Under the pieces are notes generated by a model. It saw nothing but the letters and a program-made list of their open reading frames with translations, made no database searches and was not told where the DNA came from. Below, in pieces: positions 13,677-17,155 of a stretch of 64,000 nucleotides of DNA (its first letter is position 1; the number at the start of each line of letters is the position of its first letter). The translations under genes were made by a program, and so were the position numbers. The DNA is taken from the NCBI RefSeq assembly GCF_001625445.1, contig NZ_LWHG01000028.1:310001-374000 (forward strand). The letters run 5' to 3'. Origin of the DNA: Haladaptatus sp. R4. GTDB lineage: Archaea; Halobacteriota; Halobacteria; Halobacteriales; Haladaptataceae.

Positions 13677-14542
13677 GCATTCTCGTAGACGACGACACCC
13701 GAGTGGTCGTCCAAGGTATCACCGGCGGCGAGGGTAGTTTCCACGCCGAACAGATGATGGAGTACGGAACGAACGTCGTGGCCGGTGCGGTCCCCGGCAA
13801 AGGCGGGCAGGAAGCACACGGCGTGCCCGTTTACGACACCGTGCACGAAGCGGTCGAGGAAGAGGACGCCGACGCCTCGGTTATCTTCGTCCCACCGGCG
13901 TTCGCGGCCGACGCCATCTTCGAGGCGCTCGACACGGACCTCGACCTCGCGGTCGCCATCACGGAAGGCGTCCCCACACAGGACATGTCGAAGGTGTACA
14001 AGCGCCTCTCGGAGACCGACACGCGACTGCTCGGTCCGAACTGCCCCGGCATCATCACGCCGGGCGAATCGAAACTCGGTATCCTCCCCGGCAACATCTT
14101 CGAGTCGGGTAACGTCGGTCTCGTCTCCCGCTCGGGGACGTTGACCTACCAAGTCGTGGACAGCCTCACCCAGCGCGGCATCGGGCAGACCACCGCCATC
14201 GGCATCGGCGGCGACCCGATCATCGGCACGGACTTCATCGACGCCCTCTCGCTGTTCGAGGACGACGACGACACGGACGCCGTCGTCATGTGCGGTGAAA
14301 TCGGTGGCGAGGACGAGGAAGAGGCCGCCGCGTTCATCGCGGAGAACATGGACACGCCGGTCGCTGGCTTCATCGCAGGCCGCACGGCCCCGCCAGGAAA
14401 GCGCATGGGCCACGCCGGTGCCATCGTCTCCGGCAGCGGAACCGGTACCGCGGAGTCCAAGATCAACGCGCTCAACGACGCGGGCGTCCCCGTCGGCGAC
14501 ACTCCGGAAGAAGTCGCTGACAACATCGAAGACTTCCTGTAA
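13673..14542 (+). CDS. sucD: Succinate-CoA ligase subunit alpha
   Basis: A 289-residue protein. The N-terminal CoA-binding Rossmann domain carries [17 protein letters not shown], and the phosphorylated active-site histidine is H247 in [12 protein letters not shown]. The segment [13 protein letters not shown] is the family signature. It forms the alpha2beta2 or alpha-beta enzyme with SucC. The operon appears to end here, with a T-rich stretch (TTTTATTTTT) about 15-30 nt after the stop. The AT-rich island begins immediately downstream. Confidence 0.97.
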
Positions 14543-14636
14543 ACAGGGAGTTTTCGGGGAAGTTTTATTTTTCCATAATTAAAAATAGAGAAATCAAATA
14601 TATCTCCCAGGGAGTCAAGTGAGTTTTAGTTTCAAG

Positions 14637-15407
14637 CTATATATTAGGTAGAGATGATTCAAGTCTATGTGTACTATATATGTTTTCAGCCCAATTAAGG
14701 CTCTCTTCGCAATCTGCCTCGACAAGAACCTCTAATCGACCGATATTGTCACAAGCTGCGAGCAGAATCTTCTCGTCGAGGATAAAGAGACTATATGGAA
14801 AATCATTTTCGAATATCCGAATATCGGGATAATTCGAATTGGAGACCCATTTGGGAGTGCTTGTCGTTTTTTCCATAAGTGAAGAATATGCACGCTCTGT
14901 AAGAATGAACTCTTCATTGTCAAACGATTCTGGGGATAGGTCGAAAAATCGGTCAACTATTATTTTCGGCATGAAGGAAACAACACCACGTATGTACTCC
15001 GACGCATTGATGCTCTCTCGCAGGTGATTTGCGGGCCGATACGGAGAAGAACAGTCCGGAACGATTACATTGAAATTATTTAACCGCCGGATATTGATTT
15101 CTGATGAAGATGGAATTAACTCTATTAACGGTCTTATCTCGTGGATTTTCTCTACTACTTTGTTTGTCTTCTTCGCTTCTCGAAGTAGAAAGCTCCCAGT
15201 CGTCGTCGTCGTATACCCAGTAGGAGATTCATCAATCCAGCCTCGTTCAATAAGTAGAGATAGATTTCGTTGGAGAGTTGTCCGAGGGCTCCCTGTGATG
15301 TCCATTAAATCGCGTAAATCCAGCGGTTCAGAATCAATAACATCTAGTATCTCCAATCTGACTTCAGATTTACTCAAATATCCTATTGTATTAATTAGGC
15401 ATTCCAT
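14637..15407 (-). CDS. Winged-helix transcriptional regulator (ArsR/FilR1-like haloarchaeal type)
   Basis: A 256-residue protein. Residues about 1-75 form a winged helix: EVRLEILDVI, the recognition-helix segment GSPRTTLQRNLSLLIERGWI and a wing ending TTTTGSFLL. The C-terminal 170 residues resemble the effector domain of haloarchaeal and methanogen regulators (FilR1/DUF1724 type), with conserved late strands FILDEKILLAACD. Base composition is much more AT-rich than the surrounding chromosome. It lies divergent from the halocin-like precursor gene with a 408-bp gap, and is the obvious candidate to control it. Target and ligand unknown. Confidence 0.75.
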   Translation of the reverse strand: MECLINTIGYLSKSEVRLEILDVIDSEPLDLRDLMDITGSPRTTLQRNLSLLIERGWIDESPTGYTTTTTGSFLLREAKKTNKVVEKIHEIRPLIELIPSSSEINIRRLNNFNVIVPDCSSPYRPANHLRESINASEYIRGVVSFMPKIIVDRFFDLSPESFDNEEFILTERAYSSLMEKTTSTPKWVSNSNYPDIRIFENDFPYSLFILDEKILLAACDNIGRLEVLVEADCEESLNWAENIYSTHRLESSLPNI

Positions 15408-15815
15408 ACTACTAATATGGGTTGTAGAGATAAAAATTTAACTTTCATATCATTATATGTTGCCATTTTGATCGAGTTGACCAATTACTTAAATTCATCA
15501 ATTCGTTCAATAACGGGTATACATAAACGACACTGGCAATCGCGACGGTTCCCACTTTGTATAGGATACGAGATAGAGTAATTAGCTCTTGCATACTTGA
15601 GTAAGTCAATTCAATAAACAATTGATATTGAAGTACCTATCAACTTCCCCCCCCTCTGATTTAATTGTTAACTGTCAATATTGACCTCATCTATACAATA
15701 TGTGTATCTCAGACAATAGTCTGCCAGATGCCTGGAGAATAATCAGATGCCCACACAAAGATCAGTTGCCCACCCAATAAAGTTAAAAACAAAAAGAGCA
15801 TAGAGTAGATTGAAG
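15408..15815. promoter_or_regulatory. AT-rich divergent intergenic region between regulator and halocin-like gene
   Basis: About 400 bp without a convincing gene. It contains a homopolymer run of eight C (about 15647-15654), the 19-bp-spaced repeats described separately, and a TATA-like AGTTAAAAAC at 15781-15790, about 30 nt before the ATG at 15816. The regulator's own promoter should lie near its right-hand start, in the AT-rich DNA at 15410-15450. Confidence 0.5.
15725..15775 (+). repeat. Three direct repeats (CAGATGCC type) with 19-bp period, candidate operator
   Basis: CAGATGCC at 15725, CAGATGCC at 15744 and CAGTTGCC at 15763 are exactly 19 bp apart; the second and third also share the following CCAC. 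They end six bases before the TATA-like element of the halocin-like gene, the usual position for an activator or repressor in archaea. Confidence 0.55.
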
Positions 15816-16589
15816 ATGTTCGAAAAAAAGCCTGCAAACACATCGGACGAAGGAACGAACTCAATCAAACGACGTGGCCTTTTGAAGACAATTGGTGCTT
15901 CAAGTGGTGCTGTTGGGTTCGGTATTTTGGGAACCAGTACTGCATCTGCGGATCAAGCAGATACCGAAATCAGTTCCGCTGAGATTGAAAAAGTGAATGA
16001 AGCAAAACAGAGATACGCTACTTCAGAGGCCGCTAAAGGAGCGATTCATATGCACGGAGAGCAGCTACTAGAGGAACTAAAGAAGCGAGACATTCTTGAA
16101 TCAGAAACGGAGCTACATACGGCTGACTTCACCCCCAAGAAAGAATATTCCGAGACATCGGAAGGGATGGGGATGACGAGCTTCTTGTTCAACGATACCC
16201 CGACTGCGCATATTTACACCTCAAAAAAGCTTCGGGATCAACACCTCACAGTTGTAGTACAACCACAAGTGCAGCGGAGTTATGCGATATTGCGCCCCGA
16301 CGCTACTGATCACCGCAATGCAGTAACAATTGATACATCTACGGATAATTCCTTCTCAGTACAAGCTACGTGTCACGATTACTTCTGTCTATATGATGAC
16401 TCTACCGATGATCCAACTCCTGGGGACAATTGTTGGCTAGATAAGGAACTATACAATAGATATATGAATGCGGATGGAAGTTGTTACCTCGGAGACTTCA
16501 GTACGTGCTGTGATGTGTCTGCAAAAAGTTGTAATACAGCTATTCATTGCGGAACCTCCGATGCCTGCAATGATAATCCATGTACATAA
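15816..16589 (+). CDS. Tat-exported precursor with ten-cysteine C-terminus, halocin C8-like architecture
   Basis: A 257-residue protein. The N-terminus has a Tat motif (KRRGLLKTIG, twin Arg at 19-20), a hydrophobic core and a likely cleavage site after STASA (about residue 45). Residues 46-185 contain no cysteine and are rich in charged residues. Residues 186-256 contain ten cysteines (186, 191, 206, 223, 231, 232, 239, 245, 251, 256). The halocin C8 precursor has the same plan: Tat signal, an N-terminal immunity portion (HalI) and a mature Cys-rich microhalocin of about 76 residues with ten Cys. I see no clear sequence identity to HalC8, so the match is architectural. I chose the ATG at 15816; an upstream TTG adds only two codons. 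Confidence 0.6.
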   Translation: MFEKKPANTSDEGTNSIKRRGLLKTIGASSGAVGFGILGTSTASADQADTEISSAEIEKVNEAKQRYATSEAAKGAIHMHGEQLLEELKKRDILESETELHTADFTPKKEYSETSEGMGMTSFLFNDTPTAHIYTSKKLRDQHLTVVVQPQVQRSYAILRPDATDHRNAVTIDTSTDNSFSVQATCHDYFCLYDDSTDDPTPGDNCWLDKELYNRYMNADGSCYLGDFSTCCDVSAKSCNTAIHCGTSDACNDNPCT

Positions 16590-17155
16590 AATGATGATTC
16601 GAATTAGTTAATGGTTGACCAGTGAAGAATATTTTATTTGCGAACAGAATTTCCGTTTACAGAGCCATATATAGTAACCTGGTGCCCGGGTTACTGTCGT
16701 CCACTGATTTCATTGGATCTTGATAAAAGGATCGGTCTTACGGAAGCAGCTTACAACATCGGATACGTCCTGTATGAAGAGAGTTTCTGTTTTGACCTCA
16801 CATCATAATGGAAGTTGGAAATCAGCTCAATATCCCTAAGTAACCTTGGGACCCGAAATTAGCGAGGAAACAGAACTGAAGATAGCCAAGTTCTATTATC
16901 AAATCAGATGTAGTGTTATTACTTTATTCAAGCGCTCGGTGACGACTGCACAATCAAAAGATAGTATCTGGCTAACTCCTATGCCACAAACTCACTTCTA
17001 TCCTCAGACCATTTAACACACGCAAATCTCCCACCCCACCGAACCAATAGAATTAACTCCCCATGTAGTGACACATCAGATGAAGCAACAGGGTTTCGCT
17101 GAAAGGCCAGTGGTGATGACACTGACCCTGCTTGCTTCGGGACGTACCCAGAAGC
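16590..17155. other. AT-rich gene-poor stretch closing the island
   Basis: About 565 bp with no convincing coding region. Possible frames here lack haloarchaeal codon bias and overlap no recognisable domain. No inverted repeats or transposase remnant were recognised. GC content returns to the chromosomal level at about 17150. Confidence 0.5.

Follow-up and report, generated by a model that had tools for sequence, protein, structure and literature searches.

The gene at positions 15816..16589 (forward strand) of the window, a 64,000-nucleotide stretch of the Haladaptatus sp. R4 genome, probably encodes the secreted precursor of a disulfide-rich, halocin-like peptide that inhibits competing microbes, a reading to which we give a probability of about 0.6. 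As judged by profile and alignment, the gene is one of a widespread, unnamed haloarchaeal family, and this membership in a large family adds to the picture of the original prediction, which had compared the gene with the halocin C8 precursor. We propose that the Tat leader exports a pre-pro-peptide from the cell and that the cysteine-free domain serves as a pro-domain, acting as a chaperone and possibly in self-protection; the tail, closed by five disulfides, would be released by cleavage once outside the cell, and the resulting peptide of approximately 72 residues would, like halocin C8, inhibit competing microbes. The FilR1-type regulator encoded divergently next door would control the expression of the precursor.

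The precursor has an ATG start and 257 amino acids and matches the family profile with an E-value of 4.5e-38; the opposite strand of 15816-16589 contains many stops. Its three parts follow one another on the forward strand. Residues 1-45 (15816..15950) form a Tat leader with the motif KRRGLLK, extended as KRRGLLKTIG, and a hydrophobic run that ends near residue 45. The Tat model TIGR01409 scored 14.9 bits, just under its cut-off of 16.7, and the twin arginines are conserved in more than 90% of the 80 rows of the family alignment, so that the predicted Tat signal is upheld. Residues 46-185 (15951..16370), recognized from the family alignment and an AlphaFold2 model, form a conserved domain free of cysteine. 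Residues 186-257 (16371..16586), defined by the cysteine positions and presumed to be the mature peptide, form a tail that ends in NPCT and carries all ten cysteines of the protein (186, 191, 206, 223, 231, 232, 239, 245, 251 and 256); the probability that ten of ten would fall by chance inside the last 72 residues is approximately 2e-6. The lengths predicted for the cysteine-free middle (approximately 140 residues) and the ten-cysteine end (71 residues) were thus right to within about one residue. The precursor matched no family in Pfam or PHROGs, and in NCBIfam it matched weak, sub-cut-off Tat-signal models only.

A profile of the cysteine-free domain recovered members in at least 45 of 391 haloarchaeal genomes and at least 21 of 86 genera, the genome count being a lower bound with the best ten candidates per genome scored. 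Within the taxonomic family of the host, 26 matches were found in 15 of 28 genomes, and a subset search for related loci gave four, three of them in Natrinema gari, Halorussus aquaticus and Halovivax asiaticus. The host genome holds four members (the window gene and three more); a genome may hold up to five, some in tandem. We compared 86 members, read with their flanks, and nearly all share one plan: a Tat leader, a domain of approximately 110-140 residues that contains a VQPxxxRSYAxV-like motif, and a hypervariable cysteine-rich tail of 28-86 residues (median 51). At 40% identity the tails fall into 50 clusters, that of the window gene being a singleton. In Pfam, NCBIfam and PHROGs the relatives matched only Tat-signal models, apart from scattered single matches. 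The survey by Makarova et al., published in 2019 (mBio 10:e00715-19), reportedly predicts further archaeal peptide families and may already include this one.

The number of tail cysteines is even in 83 of the 86 members (binomial 1e-21) and in 48 of the 50 tail clusters (1e-12); in these parity counts, as in the co-occurrence counts given below, kinship was allowed for by tail clustering only. Even numbers are expected if every tail cysteine pairs in disulfides, and we infer such bonds, which export would favour, although paired metal-binding cysteines could also give even counts. Among orthologues, dN in the tail is well below dS, that is, the tail is under purifying selection, and strong diversifying selection within orthologues was not seen. 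Conservation is often higher in the tail than in the middle domain (75% versus 54%, 78% versus 56% and 71% versus 41% identity between orthologues). One tandem pair is 63% identical in the middle domain and 19% identical in the tail outside the cysteines. Because orthologous tails are constrained and those of tandem copies are unrelated, the tail looks like the product and the middle domain like its carrier.

AlphaFold2 was run on five sequences. The middle domain, modelled over residues 50-179, was predicted with moderate confidence (mean pLDDT 76.6, pTM 0.71) as two helices followed by four to five strands; the confidence of the tail model was low (pLDDT approximately 30). We count the two helices at the start of the domain toward the halocin-like reading, given that immunity is reported to require a helix-loop-helix at the beginning of HalI (title of Mei 2008, listed in PMC11509114). 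Searches of the PDB by sequence and by fold gave no significant match and hence no enzyme fold was seen, including the match to an unrelated enzyme that had been named as contrary evidence when the prediction was made.

The gene lies in an island at 14543..17100, which extends from sucD to the downstream genes and was delimited by composition, the list of open reading frames and a break in synteny at 14542. The GC content of the island is 41.0%, compared with 61.1% across the window, and the next lowest 2.5-kb stretch has 57%; the island is thus the only strongly AT-rich part of the window, as had been predicted for the approximately 2.5 kb around the gene. Synteny with eight congeners ends at the sucD stop codon (14542), beyond which the sequences differ. 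The region downstream of sucD (window 14543 onward; loci L240-L247) is variable among the congeners and is a possible insertion hotspot. No tRNA, Rfam element or clear direct repeats were found at the island ends, and comparison with plasmids and phages gave no matches. According to the list of open reading frames, the only convincing genes in the island are those of the precursor and the divergent regulator, and no separate immunity or modification gene was seen. The intergenic region that the two share (15408..15815) contains a TATA-like TTAAAAA at 15783-15789, 27-33 bases 5' of the precursor ATG, which we read as a candidate promoter element; no Shine-Dalgarno sequence precedes the ATG.

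The neighbouring gene (14637..15407, reverse strand) encodes a winged-helix regulator of the FilR1/HVO_A0261 type (Pfam PF25213, 60.5 bits; PF08350, 60.1 bits). In a tree of 26 sequences, its closest kin are regulators from two loci, one in another genome, G099 (support 99/94), the second being the HalC8-type locus of the host itself (96/96), and it groups apart from the remaining host FilR1 proteins included in the tree. The G099 locus combines a FilR1 regulator, a family member, an ABC ATPase and a HalC8-type precursor within 8.3 kb; at L091 (G099:C6:97000-115000), the family member and the HalC8-type gene are approximately 5 kb apart. Of 42 HalC8-type genes, 9 have a FilR1 gene no more than 1 kb away, approximately 20 times the chance expectation (p 5e-10). 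As a mark of the whole window family, FilR1 adjacency was rejected (3 of 87, p 0.07), and one of the three cases adjoins a decayed copy.

The relation to halocin C8 is best read as one of similar working rather than of common membership, because plan and context appear similar. Like ProC8, the precursor of HalI and HalC8, the window gene would specify in a single gene a Tat-exported precursor with a cysteine-free N-terminal domain and a ten-cysteine C-terminal tail of 70-76 residues, the predicted peptide being smaller than 10 kDa; as at halocin C8-type loci, a FilR1-type regulator is encoded nearby, and, as in halocin C8, a separate immunity gene is missing from the island. Moreover, 15 genomes carry both window-family and HalC8-type genes, where approximately 5 would be expected (p 2e-5). 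Unlike halocin C8, the window tail is polar and lacks the hydrophobic HalC8 core, so its mode of action would differ from that of the hydrophobic HalC8 tails, and the tails of the window family are far more variable. The homology of the N-terminal domains is undetectable. TIGR04449 identified HalC8-type genes above its cut-off in 43 of 391 genomes, including the host, in which its only match is the HalC8-type gene on contig C21; it did not match the window precursor at E<=10 (NCBIfam). A profile comparison of the middle domain with HalC8/HalI, proposed together with the original prediction, found no homology: hhalign of the family N-domain (25 sequences) against the HalC8-type N-domains (21) returned a probability of 0.2% (E 0.26), and against a subset containing the HalC8 precursor itself 0.1%, and on this basis homology of the middle domain to HalI was rejected. 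The likeness to halocin C8 drawn in the original prediction therefore stands for the layout, with added support from even cysteine numbers, modular tails, regulator kinship and the G099 locus, whereas homology to HalC8/HalI is not supported; the same prediction had pointed out the low direct identity. Another haloarchaeal secreted precursor, HmHapP (HFX_0892) of Haloferax mediterranei, also releases an inhibitory fragment by extracellular cleavage, but there the activity resides in the N-terminal fragment and requires helices (PMC12893001). The word cysteine is absent from the main text of that article (PMC12893001).

A branch of relatives, to which the window gene does not belong, lies beside a gene for a trans-prenyltransferase-like protein of approximately 285 residues. 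Seven copies of this gene adjoin family members in six genomes (L094:5128-5997(-), L106:5558-6418(-), L112, L123, L126, L147 and L150), at 37-214 bases from the nearest member, and the enzyme is present in 11 of 391 genomes. The protein retains the FARM DDxxD, and its second motif is degenerate with an invariant Gln; its profile matches nonaprenyl diphosphate synthase (4.7e-7), as a distant relative. In all nine members beside the enzyme, a Trp is the last residue (eight members) or the last but one (one member, ending in GWL), usually after Gly. Two of the remaining 77 members end in Trp, one of them from an enzyme-bearing genome, and for Trp within the last three residues Fisher's test of enzyme-adjacent members against the rest gives p 2.5e-8. 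The best known enzyme of this kind is ComQ, which makes the ComX pheromone of Bacillus. PalQ prenylates a C-terminal Trp and prefers a preceding Gly; its activity is lost when further residues come after the Trp. The arrangement of these relatives, a trans-prenyltransferase-like gene with an intact FARM DDxxD and a degenerate second motif beside a precursor with a terminal or penultimate Trp, is common to PalQ/PalX and ComQ/ComX; unlike these systems, the relatives are archaeal, Tat-exported and disulfide-rich, and their prenylation is a prediction. The nine relatives thus suggest Trp prenylation of the PalQ/ComQ type in archaea, which, if true, would be the first sign of archaeal peptide Trp prenylation in the literature that we looked through. 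A different Tat precursor, L256:5048-5746(-) in genome G213, ends in NNSWI and lies approximately 165 bases from an enzyme copy. The GWL and SWI ends fit the PalQ model less well, given its inactivity with residues after the Trp. The window gene ends in NPCT and so offers no terminal acceptor Trp, and the host genome has no prenyltransferase-like enzyme.

Three other readings of the precursor were weighed. The tail might be part of a disulfide-rich surface or extracellular binding protein that acts uncut in adhesion, protease inhibition or metal capture, a view that we consider unlikely. Small cysteine-rich domains are often protease inhibitors or partner binders, and the middle domain may be a binding module, to judge from a weak and non-significant Foldseek likeness to the inhibitor Ivy (E 0.8); however, no cell-surface anchor was seen, no solved structure matched, and the retention of orthologous tails alongside unrelated paralogous ones fits peptides with many different targets. 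It is rather improbable that the tail is a secreted pheromone sensed by its producers, with the FilR1-type regulator in the response and no toxin involved. The regulator does adjoin the precursor, and the terminal Trp and prenyltransferase-like gene of some relatives recall the route to ComX; yet FilR1 regulators are cytoplasmic one-component proteins, the gene has no receptor-kinase pair beside it, and 70-residue peptides with five disulfides are unusual as signals. Trp prenylation is, moreover, used on antimicrobial peptides as well (PMC13290415).

We regard as very improbable the third reading, in which the precursor belongs to the halocin C8 family itself but has diverged past recognition. 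The leader, N-terminal domain, ten-cysteine tail and regulator kinship would accord with it, as would an order of helices and strands that is alike by eye, but TIGR04449 misses the precursor while finding the host's own HalC8-type gene, and both the N-domain probability of 0.2% and the absence of the hydrophobic core from the tail oppose it. Against the preferred reading, that of a halocin-like antimicrobial peptide, we count the lack of homology to HalC8/HalI, the unenriched FilR1 adjacency across the family and the low-confidence tail model. More broadly, and at somewhat less than even odds, the family may constitute a large unnamed class of antimicrobial precursors that are modular, rich in disulfides and not related to known halocins; in one branch, a C-terminal Trp would be prenylated by an archaeal PalQ/ComQ-like enzyme.

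To our knowledge, few halocins are known at the sequence level. Almost all haloarchaea are said to produce halocins (PMC11509114), and the family, which comprises at least 86 members whose tails form 50 clusters, would supply candidates for the missing halocins, each with a defined part that could be made. Several precursors of the two kinds have nearby a gene for an uncharacterized membrane protein with EYTGxNRCxPCT and a cysteine-rich tail (L091:4806-5711(-), L094:8698-9513(+), L139, L151, L158, L182 and L201); its candidacy as a dedicated partner is weakened by its presence in 358 of 391 genomes. Some family copies are decayed or frameshifted (L250:94-920(+), L141:5119-5730(+)). Finally, a subgroup (L145, L146, L149 and L152) shares a conserved EYVQ stretch, has only three or four cysteines in the tail and may differ in role.
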